NCBI GenBank assembly: GCA_902774115.1 | Contig: CACYHH010000002.1 | Coordinates: 62,001-126,000, forward strand | Direction of reading: 5' to 3' | Length of the DNA stretch: 64,000 bases | Source of the DNA: an uncultured Spirochaetales bacterium | GTDB lineage: Bacteria > UBP6 > UBA1177 | Part shown: positions 3,172 to 63,229 of the stretch, piece by piece | How the letters are laid out: each line of letters begins with the position of its first letter | Numbering within the stretch: position 1 is the first letter of the stretch | The notes under the pieces: model-generated | Told to the model about the DNA's origin: nothing | Databases searched by the model: none | The model's input: the letters and a program-made list of their open reading frames with translations, nothing else | Made by a program: the position numbers and the translations under genes

Positions 3172-3576
3172 TCAGTGGTTGTATTCGAATCCTGAAGTTA
3201 TATCGTCTTTTGTGTCTTCCTGAGTATCCGGACCATAGCTTTTTACAATAAATCCTGCACCTGAAAGCCCCGGAACCTGATCTACTTCGCGTACTTCGTA
3301 TAATTTATCCCAATAATCTTTTGCCGGATCTCGGCCGGGAACATCAGCTTTCATGTTTGCGCGGATGTATTTTGCCCATTCTTCGTCGCTCTGGTCGGGA
3401 ATCCTGCCGTCAACTATAGTGAACCCGTAAATCTGATGCGCGATCGAGTTGACTTCGTGCTGTGTCAGCGTGATTTTTACTATGTTCATAAAGTACTGTA
3501 TCTGTTCTTCGCCTATTCCGGTGAATTTCCCGAGTATGAATATTGTGGCACAGATGCCTATCATTTTCGCGAACAT
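3172..3576 (-). CDS. Small membrane-anchored protein with GspG-like C-terminal motif
   Basis: The 134-residue product has one N-terminal hydrophobic segment (MIGICATIFILGKF) but no prepilin-peptidase site (no G-FTLIE). The C-terminal half follows the type II secretion pseudopilin GspG pattern: a helix, KDYWDKLYEV, GAGFIVKSYGPD, then an acidic TKDDIT loop. In GspG that loop binds calcium. It is therefore a GspG-like domain on an ordinary membrane anchor rather than a true pseudopilin. Its start lies inside the last codons of the upstream 701-residue gene (16-base overlap), with the GAGGAGG ribosome-binding site in that coding sequence, so the two are co-translated. Confidence 0.6.
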   Translation of the reverse strand: MFAKMIGICATIFILGKFTGIGEEQIQYFMNIVKITLTQHEVNSIAHQIYGFTIVDGRIPDQSDEEWAKYIRANMKADVPGRDPAKDYWDKLYEVREVDQVPGLSGAGFIVKSYGPDTQEDTKDDITSGFEYNH

Positions 3577-5666
3577 GATTTCATTACCTCCTCTCCAAGT
3601 TGTTCAGCTCTTTCGTTTATAAGCGAATCGAGTTCCCTGCCGCCGGAAAGTGTGCTTCCGATAACATTGCAGAAACTCTCCTTGTCCAGAGTGAAGAGCA
3701 GCGAATCGCTTACAGCTTCGGCTGTAGCAGTTCTCGGAATGTTTTTGACAAGCGCCATTTCGCCGAAGAAATTGCCCGGTTTCAGGATTATGTCGAGTGT
3801 TTTAAGTGAGTTGTCGAAGCGTTCGAGATGGATGTTTCCTTCCTGGATGAGATAGAATTTGTTTCCTTCGTCGCCCTGTTTGAAAACGATCGTTCCCGCC
3901 TTTATTTTTTCCGGTTTGAGATTTTTTATCAGATAGGAAATCTGTTTCTGGCTCATGAAAGAGAAGACGGAAGAGGCGAGAAGCATCTTTCCGAGACGTA
4001 TTTTGCCGGTGATTTTCTCTCTGTTTTCGGCATTCGAGGCCAAGAACTTTTCGAAACCTTCCCTGCTTATTTCGAAAACTGCCGTCTGCGAGAGCGTTAC
4101 GATGCTTGCCGTACGCTTGCCTTTTTCGATAAGTGCCGTTTCGCCGAAAGAATCTCCGGTTGAAAGCGTTCCAAGGATCTTTTCCGCTCCGTTGTTTCCC
4201 GAAACGACGATTTTCGCCTTGCCGGAAACTATTGTGTAGAAATTGTCTCCTGCGTCTCCCTGACGGACTATCGGCGAGTTTTTCATGAAGCGGCGGAGTT
4301 TTATGTGCTTGCAGAGCTCCGTAAGATCTTCTTCCTTAAGTTCCGCAAAAAGAGGGATCTCTTTTAAAAATCCGATTATTTCTTCTGTCGCAGGCACCGC
4401 TTTCGCCGTGATCGTCCCTGCGAGATCGCGCATTTTTACAAGCGGAGTCGCAACGACCGAGCCGATGTTGCCGCAAGCGATTGCAATAAAGCCGACGAGT
4501 GCCGCTATTGCCGGAGTTATCATGAGGATCAGCGTCAGTGCGATAAATATTTCCGAAACGATGTCTCCTCCGGTGTAGGAAGTATAAAAATCGGAAAAAA
4601 GGTAGCTCATCGTTGATCTTGCTACGCTCCAGAAGTAGCTGTAGACAAAATAAATCCAGACCAATCCGAAACTGGAGAGAATCATCATCCGTTCTGTTTC
4701 GGGTGAAACTTTGTTAAGTGCGAAAACGTCTTTGATGAAGTGTTTTCTCGCATAGTTGAATGATTTTCCGCTTCCCGGCATGAAAAAATCTACAATCATT
4801 GAAAGCGGAGAAGTGCTTATCGGCGACAGAGCGATAAGTCCGCATGCTGTCGAAATCACGTTCATGACAGCCATCACAGGACGTGCGATTCCTGCCTGCC
4901 ACAAAAGAGCGGTCAGACCCGATACGGCAAACGGAGTAAGGAGAATCATCGCATAATGTTTGAGTGCGTCTGTACGTCCTTTGCCTATTATCTGTGCGGA
5001 AGAGGCTTCGAGATAGAAAAATCCGCATTTGTTTTTGAGTATTAGCCGCGGCTTGATGCCGTGTGCTGCAAGATCTGCTGCGGAAAATATCGCCGGCAGA
5101 GAGAGGATCACGAACAGAAAAACAAGTATGAAAAAAAGTGCCATAAGGTATGCCGTGCCGAGTCCGGTCGCGCCCCGTGTGATCGAAGTAAGGATGTTTA
5201 CCCCTTTCAGCGAAGGTGCCAGAAACGAGACGAGCGAAAGAATCAGCATGACGGCGAGAACAGGAATAGAGGTGAGGATTTTTCCCGCCAAAGCAAGAAT
5301 GGATGAAGGCTTGAGCTCTTTTTGAGTCAGCGTTTTTTCGTAAAAAGCCTTTTTGTGTGCCGATTTTTTGAGCCCTGCGGCACATTCCGGATCAAGCAGA
5401 TCGTTGTCGTTCAGTTTTTCGATCAGCGTTATCAACTTGTCGAAAACCGACGTGTCGCCTTTTTCCAGCCTTGATGCCGTGATGTCTGCCAAAGTGTTTT
5501 TACCGTCAAATTCAGAGAGCAGTCTCTGTTCGAGAAAATCGAGTTTTACGAAATTTCCGTCTGCTTCGGCAAAAAATACCGAGTCCGAAAATCTTGTGAC
5601 AGATAGGTTTTTCACCGGTTTCAACACTGTGAGTTCGGCATCGTGTCCTACAAAAGAATTCTTCAT
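3561..5666 (-). CDS. PqqD-like / degenerate M50 membrane domain / two cyclic-nucleotide-binding domains
   Basis: The 701-residue product has an N-terminal PqqD-like wing (residues about 20-95; SVFFAEADGNFVKLD ... LLSEFDGKNTLADI). A multi-pass membrane region follows (about 120-420), then two Crp-type cyclic-nucleotide-binding domains at about 430-545 and 560-680. Both have the PxxxGDxxxxFY and GxxFGE(T/M)AL phosphate-cassette patterns: GDSFGETALIEKGKRTAS and GNFFGEMALVKNIPRTATA, each with the RTA arginine. The membrane part is laid out like an M50 site-2-protease module, but where HExxH is expected (about 195-203) it reads SAADLAAHG. The later NxxPxxxxDG region reads ALSPISTSPLS. It is therefore probably a catalytically dead sensor or scaffold. 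AGGAG precedes the ATG. The gene heads a two-gene unit with the GspG-like gene. Confidence 0.72.
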   Translation of the reverse strand: MKNSFVGHDAELTVLKPVKNLSVTRFSDSVFFAEADGNFVKLDFLEQRLLSEFDGKNTLADITASRLEKGDTSVFDKLITLIEKLNDNDLLDPECAAGLKKSAHKKAFYEKTLTQKELKPSSILALAGKILTSIPVLAVMLILSLVSFLAPSLKGVNILTSITRGATGLGTAYLMALFFILVFLFVILSLPAIFSAADLAAHGIKPRLILKNKCGFFYLEASSAQIIGKGRTDALKHYAMILLTPFAVSGLTALLWQAGIARPVMAVMNVISTACGLIALSPISTSPLSMIVDFFMPGSGKSFNYARKHFIKDVFALNKVSPETERMMILSSFGLVWIYFVYSYFWSVARSTMSYLFSDFYTSYTGGDIVSEIFIALTLILMITPAIAALVGFIAIACGNIGSVVATPLVKMRDLAGTITAKAVPATEEIIGFLKEIPLFAELKEEDLTELCKHIKLRRFMKNSPIVRQGDAGDNFYTIVSGKAKIVVSGNNGAEKILGTLSTGDSFGETALIEKGKRTASIVTLSQTAVFEISREGFEKFLASNAENREKITGKIRLGKMLLASSVFSFMSQKQISYLIKNLKPEKIKAGTIVFKQGDEGNKFYLIQEGNIHLERFDNSLKTLDIILKPGNFFGEMALVKNIPRTATAEAVSDSLLFTLDKESFCNVIGSTLSGGRELDSLINERAEQLGEEVMKSCSRK

Positions 5667-9475: not shown

Positions 9476-9790
9476 TTACAAGTCTACCCTTGATAAATCT
9501 CTGCCGCCGTACATGATGCGGACGATATTTACGACTTTATGATCTTCATTCGGCTGATACCAGACCAGATAATTATCTATCGGAAAAAATCTTATTTTCT
9601 GGCTTTTCAGCGGTTCATCAGTGCAAAGCGGATGCATGAGCGGCATTTTGTCGAGTGATTTAACTGAATCCATTATCCGTTTGACCTGTTGTGATGCTGT
9701 GTTCGGCACACATAGTTCAAAAGCGATGTATTCGTATATCGCTCTTAAATCGTTGAAGGCTTTCTCTGAATAATTTATCGTCCAGTTCAT
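9476..9790 (-). CDS. RelE/ParE-superfamily toxin
   Basis: The 104-residue product has the RelE/ParE layout: N-terminal strand and helix (WTINYSEKAFNDLRAIYEYI), a helix pair, then the beta-sheet end with KIRFFPIDNYLVWYQ and VVNIVRIMYGGRDL, where the IxYGxRD ending is typical of ParE-like proteins. RelE-type members cleave mRNA on the ribosome and ParE-type members poison gyrase; the sequence does not decide which. It overlaps the antitoxin gene upstream by 4 bases (ATGA), the usual order for these pairs. Confidence 0.85.
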   Translation of the reverse strand: MNWTINYSEKAFNDLRAIYEYIAFELCVPNTASQQVKRIMDSVKSLDKMPLMHPLCTDEPLKSQKIRFFPIDNYLVWYQPNEDHKVVNIVRIMYGGRDLSRVDL

Positions 9791-10092
9791 AGGTTATAAA
9801 TCCGTTTCATTTCTTCAGAAACCTGTTCCTCGGAATAAACATTGCCGTTCTCGATGTCCGCAAGACCTTTCGCGATTTCGCGGTTGAGTTCCTCCTTGCT
9901 GAGATCTCCAGCAAAAAGCGGCTTCTCAGCCGCCAGCTTCAGTTCAAAAGGGATTCCGCGATGAATTACGACCTGCCTTAAAAACATGTCAACGGCATTC
10001 GACATCGGAATTCCAAGCTGGCTGAGCACCATTTCTGCCTGTTCTTTTATTCCGGGTTCGATTCTTGCAAAAACATTTGAAGTTCTTCCCAT
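9787..10092 (-). CDS. RelB/DinJ-family antitoxin
   Basis: The 101-residue product starts MGRTSNVFARIEPGIKEQAEMVL and continues with LGIPMSNAVDMFLRQVVIHRGIPFEL, the ribbon-helix-helix pattern of the RelB/DinJ family. The C-terminal half (SEEQVSEEMKRIYNL) would wrap the toxin. ATG 10092 is chosen because GGAGG stands 7 bases upstream; the frame is open 9 codons further but that start would lie upstream of the ribosome-binding site. The gene is first in the toxin-antitoxin operon and probably autorepresses through the repeats at 10121-10138. Confidence 0.87.
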   Translation of the reverse strand: MGRTSNVFARIEPGIKEQAEMVLSQLGIPMSNAVDMFLRQVVIHRGIPFELKLAAEKPLFAGDLSKEELNREIAKGLADIENGNVYSEEQVSEEMKRIYNL

Positions 10093-10120
10093 AGCATTAC
10101 CTCCGCAACCAAAACGCAAT

Positions 10121-13006: not shown

Positions 13007-16000
13007 CTATTTTGTTCTCAAATACTCCAGAGTTTCTTTGTAGAGTATTTTCGGAGCTGTTTCGTAAAGGGAGCTGATTACTTTGATTGCTTTGTCTCGG
13101 TATTGTTCTTCATGAGTCAGATTGAATAGACCTACGTTGACAGCAGCAAGGCTTTCGCCTTCAAGATCATCTGTCATCATATCTTTAATCATTTTTACAG
13201 CTTTCTCCGGATCTTTTAAAGATGTCAGTTTGCACTGGAAAAGCCTGTTCTTGAACTGCAGATCATTGCGGTCGACTTCTTCAATGATTTTTCCTGCTTC
13301 CAAGCTAAGTTCGAATGCCTTGTCGTATTTTTTTGTGCGGAAAAGAAGGTCGGCGTATTCAAACATGAATTCACACAGGATGTTGTTTGCGTTGAGCTCT
13401 TTCGCAATGGATATCGCCTGAAGGTAATGCTCCTCTGATTTATCAAAATTTCCTTCTTTTTTCGCGATGTTACCCAGAATAAGGTGAGCCAGTGCGACGT
13501 GTCTGCGGATTCCGAGTTCTGTTGCGATTTCAAGCTGGTCTCCGATAAGCGATTTTGCCTCGTCATATTCGCCGAGCCAGTACTTAAGTTCTCCGAGGTT
13601 GTTCGACGTGTAGCAGATATACTGTCTGATTCCGACTTTTTTGTATGTTTCGAGTGCCCTGCGGTAGAATTTTGCTGCGTTTTTGAAATCGTTGATGTAT
13701 GAATATACAAGACCGATGTTGTTCTCGGCGACTGCGACATCAAGCAGATTCTCGTTTTCTTTGGAGATTTTCAGCTGATTCTTGTAGTGCTGAAGCGCTT
13801 TCTGGTAGTCGCCGCGGTAGTATGCGACACCGCCCATGTATCTGTAGGAAAGGGCTTTTGCCGATTTGTCGTCGATGATTTCTGCGAGACGGAGTTTTTC
13901 GGTGAAGTGCTCGACCGCGTCATCAAGTTCGCCTTTGTAATAATGTATAAGTCCGCGGAAACCTTCGACATCGCATTTACCTTTGATGTCGTTGAGTTCG
14001 TTATAAAATTTTTCGGCTTCATCAAGGAGCGGATTAGCCTCGTCGTAACGTCCTTTCTGAAGCATCATGTTGGCAAGTTCCTTCATACTCGTTGCAATGA
14101 GGAGCTTGTTTCCGATATTCTGTGAACGTTCAAGACTCTCTTTGAATAATTTTTCTGTAAGATCCCATTTTCCTTCAATTCGGTAGACGGTAGCCAGACT
14201 GTGGTCAACTTTGATGATTTCAACGTCGTCCTTGAGAAGACCGAGCAGCTTTTCGTACATTTTTTCAGCTTCTTCGTTGTGATACTGGGATTTTGCGTAG
14301 TCAGCCGCTTTTTTAAGATAGACGATTTCTTTTTCGGTATCTTCGGCCTTTTCGTAGTGGAATGCGAGAGTCGAGAAGAATTTTTCTTCGTCTTTGTAGT
14401 TTTTCTCGATAGCGTGAGCGACTTTTTTGTGGATCTCTTTAAGGCGTGCCTTGAGCTGCATCGAGTATGCCGCATCGCGCAGAAGAGCGTGCCTGAACGA
14501 ATAGAGCAGCGACGAAGCTTCGTTCCATACGAGTTCGTCAACGCCTTCCTGAAGAAGGTCGGGAATATTTTTCTTGTCCTGTTCCTGTGCGATGTCGTTG
14601 AGAACCAGAAGGTCTATGTTATTGCCGAGAACCGAAGCGCGGAAAACAAGATCCTTCAAGTGCTGCGAAAGTCTGTCGAGACGGCTTACAAGAAGTGAGT
14701 TGACACCGCTCGGAACCTCGGTTTTGTTGCTTGTGAGAGTGTAGTACCTGCCGGTTTTCTGGATGTATTTCTTGTCTTTCATGAAGAGGACAAGCTGTTC
14801 GATGAAGAACGGGTTGCCGTCGGTACGTGAAAATACGAAGTCGTTGAGTTCACGGTTTCCCTTTTCTCCGAGGATATTTTTAACCATCATCGGAATGTCG
14901 CTTTTCTGCATTTTGTCGATGACGATTTCGTGGAAGCGGTCGTCGCTTATGGTGAGAATTTCCGGTTTTGTACCGTCGTCGTTGAGTCTCGACATGATGT
15001 AAAGTGCAACCGGATACTCGTCAAGAGCTTTTACCAGAGCTCTGACTATTGCGAGTGAATCACTGTCCGCCGCGTGCATATCGTCAAGAACGAGCATAAG
15101 CGGTCTGGTTTCAGCTATTGCTGCGAAGAAGTCGCAGACTGCATAAATCGTGTTTTCATATCTTGTCTTTGCATCGAGCAGGTCATACTGTGAACCTTCC
15201 CAGAAAATGCCTGCAAGTGCGGCAATGTATGCTTTGGAAGCCTCAAAAGCTTCTTTTTTATTGATGATTTCGGCTGATAATGCAGCCCATGCCTTTTCGA
15301 AAGCAGCGTGGTTTTCATCGACCGAAGCGTTTTCATTCTGGTTGAAAAGTGTGTGGAAGAAGCTCGTGAACATGTTCAGGGACTGACGGAGTATAGTATC
15401 TGTTTTTAAAGTCAATACCCTGAAATCATTGGTTGAATTCTTCCTGACCTCGTAAATCAGACGTGATTTTCCGATACCTGCCTCTCCGTAGATCGTCGAG
15501 CAGTAGAGCCTGTTGTTTTCGCGGCATTTGTCGCGGGTGTCGAAAAGCAGTTTAAGTTCTTTGGTTCTGCCTGTGAAAGCAGTCGAAAATGAAGCTTCCT
15601 CTTCAACTTTGAGGTGTCCTTTTATTTCAAAAACTTCTACGGGAACATCGATTCCTTTGAAGGCAAAATCACCTTTGCTTTCGAGTTCAAAGACGCTTTT
15701 TGCCTTTTCAGCCGCTTTTCCGGCGATCCAGTCGGCACCGTACGGAGCCTTCATCATGACTCTGGCGGAAAGGTTTACGTTGTCGCCGAGAGCGGTGTAT
15801 GCCGATCGTTTCGGGCTGCCGACGAATCCTGCGTAGACAACACCCTGCGTGATGCCGCTCCTTAGCTCGGTGTCACAGTTCTTCCTGATTTCGGCAACGC
15901 AGTCGATAGCACGCTCCAGATTGTCTTCGTAGCTTACAGGTGCACCGAAAAGGGCGAGCAGTGTCGCACCTTTGTCGCCGAAATCGAAACCGCTGATGTA

Positions 16001-16804
16001 TCCGCCGTATTTCTGGACGTAACTGGCTAAATATTCAAGCATATTTTCGATTTTTTCCGTGTCGTTGGCGATTATGTAGGAAATGAAAAGAGATACGACT
16101 TCGCGGAACTCTCCGGGGATTTCCTGCTCGATAACTGTGTGCGGAATGAATATTTCAAGGTCTTCGATTTTTGGCTCGACCTGCTCTGGAACGCTTTGTG
16201 CCGGAACTTTCAGATCGTCGATAAAACATGCATCTTCTTTTATGTGAGTGACACAGTCGTTTTTAAGGATCTCGAAAACTTTGTCGTTTATGCAGATGTC
16301 GTTTGCAGTGCAGTGGTGTTCCGCTCCTGCGGCTTCGTCGACAACGTTGCCGAAAAAGAGGAAATGTCTCAGATTTTCTTCGCCTTTTGCCGCGATCCAG
16401 TTGAATTTTCCTATTGAAATTCCGGCCTTGGCAGAAATTTTGAAAGCCTGACCTCGGTGATAGAGTGCCGGATTCTCGGTGAAAAACTTGCGGATGTCAA
16501 GTGCCGCAGTTATTGCGCGCCTGCCGTTATCACCTTTGAAAACAGCTGTAAAAGCGTCTCCTGCAAAGTTGAGGATGAATCCGTTCTGGTTGTATACCGC
16601 TTCGATAAGCGGATTGAATATCGTGTTCATGAAGACCGAAAGTGTTTCTGCACCGTCGCTTCCCTGCGACATGAGCTGTCTTGTCATATTTGTGAAACCC
16701 GATATATCGACGAACATAACCGACGCGTCCACCGATCCTGATTTTTTACTGGAATTGATGTCAAAATAACCAAGCTGTTTAAGATCAGGAATTAAATTTC
16801 TCAT
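13007..16804 (-). CDS. Soluble-adenylyl-cyclase-like protein: two class III cyclase domains, AAA-type ATPase, TPRs
   Basis: The 1265-residue protein has two class III cyclase domains (about 25-190 and 230-395), a GxxGxGKS ATPase (Walker A EAGIGKS at about 441-447; Walker B-like MLVLDDMHAAD) and a long TPR array (about 830-1230). Catalytic parts are split. Domain 1 keeps both metal aspartates (FVDISGFT, about D33; FAGDAFTAVF, about D83) but has NVVDEAAGAEHH where the Asn/Arg pair belongs. Domain 2 lacks the first aspartate (VVSLFISYI) but has GDNVNLSARV with both Asn and Arg. That is the arrangement of soluble adenylyl cyclases, where the two domains build one active site, so cAMP synthesis is likely. 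ATG 16804 has an AGGT upstream; the promoter is at 16837-16864. The TPRs probably bind regulators. Confidence 0.85.
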   Translation of the reverse strand: MRNLIPDLKQLGYFDINSSKKSGSVDASVMFVDISGFTNMTRQLMSQGSDGAETLSVFMNTIFNPLIEAVYNQNGFILNFAGDAFTAVFKGDNGRRAITAALDIRKFFTENPALYHRGQAFKISAKAGISIGKFNWIAAKGEENLRHFLFFGNVVDEAAGAEHHCTANDICINDKVFEILKNDCVTHIKEDACFIDDLKVPAQSVPEQVEPKIEDLEIFIPHTVIEQEIPGEFREVVSLFISYIIANDTEKIENMLEYLASYVQKYGGYISGFDFGDKGATLLALFGAPVSYEDNLERAIDCVAEIRKNCDTELRSGITQGVVYAGFVGSPKRSAYTALGDNVNLSARVMMKAPYGADWIAGKAAEKAKSVFELESKGDFAFKGIDVPVEVFEIKGHLKVEEEASFSTAFTGRTKELKLLFDTRDKCRENNRLYCSTIYGEAGIGKSRLIYEVRKNSTNDFRVLTLKTDTILRQSLNMFTSFFHTLFNQNENASVDENHAAFEKAWAALSAEIINKKEAFEASKAYIAALAGIFWEGSQYDLLDAKTRYENTIYAVCDFFAAIAETRPLMLVLDDMHAADSDSLAIVRALVKALDEYPVALYIMSRLNDDGTKPEILTISDDRFHEIVIDKMQKSDIPMMVKNILGEKGNRELNDFVFSRTDGNPFFIEQLVLFMKDKKYIQKTGRYYTLTSNKTEVPSGVNSLLVSRLDRLSQHLKDLVFRASVLGNNIDLLVLNDIAQEQDKKNIPDLLQEGVDELVWNEASSLLYSFRHALLRDAAYSMQLKARLKEIHKKVAHAIEKNYKDEEKFFSTLAFHYEKAEDTEKEIVYLKKAADYAKSQYHNEEAEKMYEKLLGLLKDDVEIIKVDHSLATVYRIEGKWDLTEKLFKESLERSQNIGNKLLIATSMKELANMMLQKGRYDEANPLLDEAEKFYNELNDIKGKCDVEGFRGLIHYYKGELDDAVEHFTEKLRLAEIIDDKSAKALSYRYMGGVAYYRGDYQKALQHYKNQLKISKENENLLDVAVAENNIGLVYSYINDFKNAAKFYRRALETYKKVGIRQYICYTSNNLGELKYWLGEYDEAKSLIGDQLEIATELGIRRHVALAHLILGNIAKKEGNFDKSEEHYLQAISIAKELNANNILCEFMFEYADLLFRTKKYDKAFELSLEAGKIIEEVDRNDLQFKNRLFQCKLTSLKDPEKAVKMIKDMMTDDLEGESLAAVNVGLFNLTHEEQYRDKAIKVISSLYETAPKILYKETLEYLRTK

Positions 16805-16836
16805 ATTTACCTGCCAATTCAAAAATTAACCGGGCA

Positions 16837-61867: not shown

Positions 61868-63229
61868 TTAAAATTCGTCGTCTTTCGAAAGTCTGCGGTA
61901 GAGCGTCCGCTCGGAACAGCCGAGAAGTTTTGCGGCGGAATGTTTGTCTCCGTTTGTGAATTTGAGCGTTGCTTCAAGCACCTCTTTTTCGATTTCTTCG
62001 AGGGTCTTGTCGCCGACCCGGAACGAAAGGATCTCTGCGCTGCCGTTATCGGATTTTGCCGAAGCCTGCTCGTTTTCGCCTGACGGAAGCCCGGAACCTG
62101 TCAGAACAAGGCGGCTTACGAAACTTTTGAGTTCTCTGACGTTGCCTTTCCAGTCCCGTTTGACAAGTTCCTTTATAGTCTCGTGATCGGGGTATACTAC
62201 CTCTTTCGCAAATTCCAGAGATGCTTTTTCTACAAAATGCTGAACGAGCGGAGGAATATCCTCTCTGCGCTCTCTCAAAGGCGGGATGTGAAGGATAAAC
62301 GTGTTCAGTCTGTAGTAGAGATCTTTCCTGAAATTTCCTTTTTCAGCCTCTTTTTCAAGATTTTTGTTCGTCGCGGCGATAATTCTGACATTCGCATGTA
62401 ACGGAGTCGAACTGCCGACCGGAAGATATTCCCTCGATTCGAGGAAACGGAGCAGTTTCGTCTGAAGACTCGGCGGCATATCGCCGATTTCGTCTATGAA
62501 AAGTGTTCCTCCTTCTGCCGCGCCCACTAAACCGGGCGAATTTTTGTCGGCACCCGTGAAAGCTCCTTTTTTGTAGCCGAAAAGCTCCGATTCCATCAGG
62601 GATTCTGTTACCGCAGCGGCATTGAAAGGAAGAAACGGTGCTCCGGCGCGTCTGCTTTCTCGCAGAACGAAGCGTGCAACGAGCTCTTTTCCGGTTCCGC
62701 TTTCGCCGGTTATGAGAACGGTTTCATCGGTTTTTGCTATTTCCGCTGCGTTTTTGAGAAGTTTTTCCATCGTCTCGCTCTGGAAGATTATGCGGTATTT
62801 ATCCGCCGAAATATCGAGGTTTTCCTTTTTCAGACGAACGTTTTCTTTCATAAGATTTCCGACTTCGATCGCTTTGTTCATCTGTTCCAGAAGAACTTTT
62901 ATATCGACCGGTTTCGTAAGAAAGGTGAATGCGCCGTTCTGCATAGCCCGAACGGCATTTTCGACATTGCCGTAAGCTGTTATCATGATGATAGGGATCT
63001 GCGTTCCCAAATCCTTTACCGCCTCGATTATGTCAAAACCGTCAAAGCCGCCGGGAAGAAAAAGGTCGGTAACGATGACTGAAAGTTCATGCTCGAGTTC
63101 CTTAATGATTTTAAGACCTTCTGTGGCTGAAGCCGCAGTCATTACCGTGTAGCCCGAGTTGCCGAGCAGGAATTTGAGCGAAGTGAGTATCGATTCTTCG
63201 TCGTCTATGACAAGAACAATTCTATTCAT
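61868..63229 (-). CDS. NtrC-family sigma-54-dependent response regulator
   Basis: The 453-residue product has a receiver domain (acidic VIDDEESI; phosphoacceptor in VIVTDLFLPGG; TAYGN; lysine in LTKPVD). An AAA+ sigma-54 activator domain follows (Walker A ITGESGTGKELVARF, sigma-54 contact ELFGYKKGAFTGADKNS, Walker B GGTLFIDEIGDMP, RFLESREYLPVGS). At the C-terminus is a Fis-type helix-turn-helix (TNGDKHSAAKLLGCSERTLYRRL). All key residues are present, so it should be a phosphorylation-controlled enhancer-binding activator. No histidine kinase gene is in the window. It follows the MFS gene by 6 bases and precedes the two glycosyltransferases, which may be in its regulon. Confidence 0.94.
   Translation of the reverse strand: MNRIVLVIDDEESILTSLKFLLGNSGYTVMTAASATEGLKIIKELEHELSVIVTDLFLPGGFDGFDIIEAVKDLGTQIPIIMITAYGNVENAVRAMQNGAFTFLTKPVDIKVLLEQMNKAIEVGNLMKENVRLKKENLDISADKYRIIFQSETMEKLLKNAAEIAKTDETVLITGESGTGKELVARFVLRESRRAGAPFLPFNAAAVTESLMESELFGYKKGAFTGADKNSPGLVGAAEGGTLFIDEIGDMPPSLQTKLLRFLESREYLPVGSSTPLHANVRIIAATNKNLEKEAEKGNFRKDLYYRLNTFILHIPPLRERREDIPPLVQHFVEKASLEFAKEVVYPDHETIKELVKRDWKGNVRELKSFVSRLVLTGSGLPSGENEQASAKSDNGSAEILSFRVGDKTLEEIEKEVLEATLKFTNGDKHSAAKLLGCSERTLYRRLSKDDEF

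Follow-up and report, generated by a model that had tools for sequence, protein, structure and literature searches.

How should one read a membrane protein that joins cyclic-nucleotide-binding (CNB) domains to a site-2-protease (S2P, family M50) module without its catalytic motif: as a decaying gene, as an enzyme with a new active site, or as a protease that has become a regulator? The protein is encoded in a stretch of 64,000 nucleotides (hereafter the window) that covers contig positions 62001–126000 of a 2.5-Mb genome of the candidate phylum UBP6 (Candidatus Asafiota is another name of this lineage; PMC11382960). The genome is that of a rumen bacterium, and rumen and gut MAGs are among its close relatives. 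The open reading frame that a sequence-only reading had placed at 3561–5666 is present there: it encodes 701 amino acids from an ATG start, and its strand is the minus strand. The features of this gene and of the gene that overlaps it are as follows (window coordinates).

3561–5666, minus strand: coding sequence of the putative pseudoprotease (701 aa), comprising a PqqD-like domain, a dead M50 membrane core, CNB and CNB
5391–5609, minus strand: PqqD-like (RiPP-recognition-like winged helix) domain, residues ∼20–92, from alignment to the relative L081 and Foldseek
4632–5306, minus strand: M50 (site-2-protease)-derived membrane core, residues ∼121–345, from profile comparisons, MAFFT and AF2
5082–5096, minus strand: position of the lost HExxH, now PAIFS, residues 191–195, from hhalign and MAFFT
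4797–4826, minus strand: position of the lost NPLLxLDGYY, now SPISTSPLSM, residues 281–290, from hhalign and MAFFT
4032–4295, minus strand: first CNB domain, phosphate cassette at 4107–4148
3660–3911, minus strand: second CNB domain, phosphate cassette at 3726–3767
3172–3576, minus strand: GspG (T2SSG)-like partner gene with a hydrophobic N-terminus, 134 aa, overlapping the 3′-end of the coding sequence by 16 bp

Pfam returned both of the CNB domains that had been claimed (cNMP_binding, E 1.7e-44) and no other match to the 701-residue protein; M50 (PF02163) went undetected. The assignment of the N-terminus to PqqD is indirect: the PqqD profile leaves the window protein unmatched, and the case draws on alignment to L081, which scores 24.5 bits against the Pfam cut-off of 23.4, together with Foldseek matches to the RiPP-recognition folds of TruD and TigE (probability 0.85–0.91). 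The PqqD-M50-CNB arrangement proposed for the protein has true counterparts, in that intact PqqD-M50-CNB-CNB proteins exist (L074, L075, L124, L168–L170).

Descent of the membrane part from M50 was examined by profile comparison. A profile built from 15 members over their N-terminal 430 residues (A2) was aligned by hhalign with one built from nine intact PqqD-M50 proteins (A3), which gave a probability of 98% and an E value of 5e-14 over 321 columns, and likewise in the reverse direction. To rule out the PqqD-like part or hydrophobicity as the driver of this match, the membrane part was compared alone: it scored 40.6 against 34 intact proteins that lack CNB domains and 58.1 against three intact CNB proteins, while the maximum among 120 shuffles (60 column, 60 block) was 23.3 and the reversed profile reached 15.1. 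Chance hydrophobic similarity is ruled out by these controls, and the comparison supports the M50 ancestry that the sequence-only reading had put forward. The AF2 model places a helix at 169–201, a hairpin at 207–221 and helices at 231–257, 262–279 and 287–295 (pLDDT 74–77); helix, hairpin, helix, helix is the order expected of an M50 core, and the model agrees with it. A Foldseek search of the PDB with the predicted N-terminal half, run without an intact-M50 control, gave no M50 protein among the 50 matches listed, these being low-confidence CorA-type and RiPP-recognition folds only; on the question of an M50 core the predicted structure is neutral. Sequence searches of the PDB with the N-terminal half or the partner returned nothing useful.

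Where, then, did the metal motifs lie? Alignment by hhalign and, independently, by MAFFT with 53 proteins sets HExxH against PAIFS (191–195) and NPLLxLDGYY against SPISTSPLSM (281–290). The loss of HExxH had been recognized from the letters alone, but its position had been set four residues off, at SAADLAAHG (195–203): both alignments replace SAADL by PAIFS. The second motif is lost, as had also been claimed. HExxH is absent from the window protein and from 15 of 15 close members, and from every full-length homologue found in UBP6 and beyond it, that is, in a Planctomycetota MAG (L037, 32% identity) and a genome from a further, third phylum (L017, 23%). At the second motif (NPxxxxDG) the Asp is left, among close members, only in L016 and L037; L017 has Glu. 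With conservation in 85% or more of the members as the threshold, the polar, charged or aromatic residues retained in the membrane part are limited to Ser, Thr, Asn, Tyr, Trp and one Arg; none is a His, Asp, Glu or Cys. This argues against a replacement metal site elsewhere in the membrane part, which the earlier reading had named as a ground for refutation. Judged by its sequence, the window protein is a putative pseudoprotease that has probably given up intramembrane proteolysis.

The gene is nonetheless maintained. Of the 14 other UBP6 genomes searched in the same genus, 11 carry a full-length homologue, as do three from other genera within the family and one from a different family within the order; identities through UBP6 are 42–94%. 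Within the genus dN/dS is ∼0.05–0.15 in most comparisons, with a few up to 0.24, across the PqqD-like, membrane and CNB parts; the low values in the membrane part indicate that purifying selection acts there too. A recent pseudogene is ruled out by these values together with the intact reading frames, and since dead relatives are known across several further groups of bacteria, the loss appears to be an ancient shift of function, not decay.

How these dead forms relate to intact proteases was followed with a profile (A5) run on 392 genomes of the phylum of L037 and 386 relatives of the window's genome. HExxH has been lost in 14 of the 22 CNB lineages examined and kept in eight (UBP6 counted once), whereas 35 of 35 examined relatives without CNB domains keep it. 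One further PqqD-M50 protein without CNB domains (L174, 1525–2742), outside these 35, has HQxxH in place of HExxH and keeps MDGYH. L121 keeps HELAR and LD, and L123 keeps NPLQATDG; from their sequences the two look like stages of motif loss. UBP6 groups with L037 and L017/L163 in a single clade (support 100/93). On the best tree the dead forms require three changes, although there may have been only one. Long branches leave the deeper order uncertain. No intact PqqD-M50 protein was found in UBP6 genomes. Among the dead relatives, one PqqD-M50-CNB protein of 1579 aa (L122, 4225–8961, minus strand) carries a long N-terminal extension that is TPR-like in appearance. An active site that is often lost with CNB domains and kept without them allows a direct test of how a ligand-sensing domain may turn a protease into a regulator.

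The sensor itself appears intact. Both phosphate cassettes, FGETALIEKGKRTA (residues 507–520) and FGEMALVKNIPRTA (634–647), have been kept, as the sequence-only reading held, and the FGE...RTA pattern with its conserved Glu and Arg occurs in both and is retained in 15 of 15 close members. The best Foldseek matches of the CNB region are PKA regulatory subunits. Searched by protein family, the genome encodes four CNB proteins and has matches to class III cyclases in a 710-aa protein (L080) and in a 1271-aa protein in the window (13007–16822, minus strand) that combines two domains of class III cyclase type with an AAA ATPase domain and TPRs. The ligand of the tandem CNB domains would probably be cAMP. 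The layout of the 1271-aa protein resembles soluble adenylate cyclase, and its gene lies ∼10 kb from the pseudoprotease, here and in several related genomes.

The GspG-like partner gene is a new point that the earlier reading did not contain. Each of the 15 close members examined, L037 and L017 among them, has a homologue that overlaps in the same way, and this constancy makes it a concrete first candidate for binding. The partner has an acidic GPD...DDI loop resembling that of GspG; its own PF08334 (T2SSG) score is 13.1 bits, under the cut-off of 21, and the partners in L037, L176 and L129 exceed the Pfam cut-off. Among lineages whose flanks are visible, a GspG-like neighbor was seen in seven of 13 dead ones against none of seven intact ones (Fisher 0.044, with kinship ignored and sampling drawn from a profile that included dead members), a suggestive association with the dead forms. 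The dead relatives L122, L123, L125 and L128 have no such gene beside them, and so not every dead form needs the partner. Directly downstream of two dead relatives are genes for look-alike proteins with Cys-rich, zinc-ribbon-like motifs (L128, 86–1474, minus strand; L129, 4220–5776, plus strand), possibly another type of partner. Elsewhere in the window (9476–10119, minus strand) two adjacent small ORFs form, by their sequence, a candidate RelE/DinJ-type toxin-antitoxin pair.

The sequence shows a gene of M50 descent that has lost the two metal motifs, keeps both CNB cassettes, is under purifying selection and is overlapped by a GspG-like gene. On this basis we give about even odds (a probability of roughly 0.5) to our main reading, that the protein is an S2P pseudoenzyme, derived from a PqqD-M50-CNB-CNB protease and retained for a task other than proteolysis, which would be gated by nucleotide and hold its partner uncut. 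A cyclic nucleotide, probably cAMP, would bind the cytoplasmic CNB pair; binding would shift the conformation of the pseudo-S2P helices; these may hold the GspG-like partner, itself anchored in the membrane, uncut in what used to be the substrate groove; and the nucleotide could in this way control retention, placement or release of the partner at the cell envelope. The groove-holding step is suggested by gene adjacency and the precedent of other pseudoenzymes. More tentatively, the pair may constitute an as yet undescribed bacterial signaling cassette found in several phyla, a gated S2P pseudoprotease with a translationally coupled GspG-like partner, in which the groove serves as a ligand-controlled clamp; we would put this a little short of an even chance.

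The same parts can be assembled differently. The dead S2P could be a cAMP-gated membrane dock that switches a type II secretion (T2SS) or type IV pilus (T4P) machine, with a partner akin to a minor pseudopilin. The GspG-like domain of the partner fits such a dock, as do five matches over cut-off to the T2SS/T4P ATPase family in the genome, but no prepilin (N-methyl) leader could be recognized in the partner sequences, and the window's first 12 kb showed no recognizable T2SS or pilus gene beside the pair; we regard a dock as unlikely. It is improbable that the protein acts in the manner of iRhoms, competing with an active S2P for its substrates under cyclic-nucleotide control: iRhoms (PMC3149277) and plant EGY3 (PMC10978774) are precedents, but the UBP6 genomes yielded no intact PqqD-M50 protein, and the constant companion is a GspG-like gene and no protease.

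Two further readings concern the membrane part itself. Ser133 and Ser189 never vary and Ser195 hardly does, and Ser189 and Ser195 flank the place where HExxH was lost, as might suit an enzyme whose inherited fold now houses another active site; against this, with no His, Asp, Glu or Cys conserved, neither a catalytic dyad nor a metal site is evident, and we hold a new enzyme to be very improbable. That the membrane part is not derived from M50 at all, its match reflecting generic hydrophobic helices, would accord with the silence of Pfam on M50 and with the fold-search matches listed, but is contradicted by the shuffled and reversed controls, by the colinear motifs and by the intermediates L121 (HELAR and LD kept) and L123 (NPLQATDG kept), and is scarcely credible.

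To our knowledge, inactive relatives of intramembrane proteases are known mainly from eukaryotes, iRhoms and EGY3 being the examples. iRhoms belong to the rhomboid (serine) family, are eukaryotic and are without cyclic-nucleotide domains, unlike the window protein. They have been kept for regulation (PMC3149277). EGY3, a chloroplast S2P-family pseudoprotease of plants, has no HExxH and retains a cellular role, but the available part of its description mentions no CNB domain, PqqD domain or GspG-like partner (PMC10978774). For bacteria, the text of a review of S2Ps covers groups that carry PDZ or CBS domains and contains neither ‘cyclic’ nor PqqD (PMC10202637), and we found no description of a bacterial S2P pseudoprotease with CNB domains in the open-access literature, subscription papers being mostly outside the search.

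The tandem CNB domains with intact phosphate cassettes are those of PKA regulatory subunits and CRP-type proteins (PF00027); here, in contrast, the pair is fused to a membrane pseudoprotease, without a kinase or DNA-binding domain. Closest in layout are proteins of PqqD-M50-HlyD type (e.g., L052) and of PqqD-M50-CNB type (L074, L075, L168–L170): both share a PqqD-like domain followed by the M50 core, and the latter also carry a C-terminal tandem of CNB domains, as does the window protein. Both keep HExxH and NPxxxxDGY, whereas the window protein has lost the two motifs; and the intact CNB members with visible flanks have no adjoining GspG-like gene, whereas the window protein has one.
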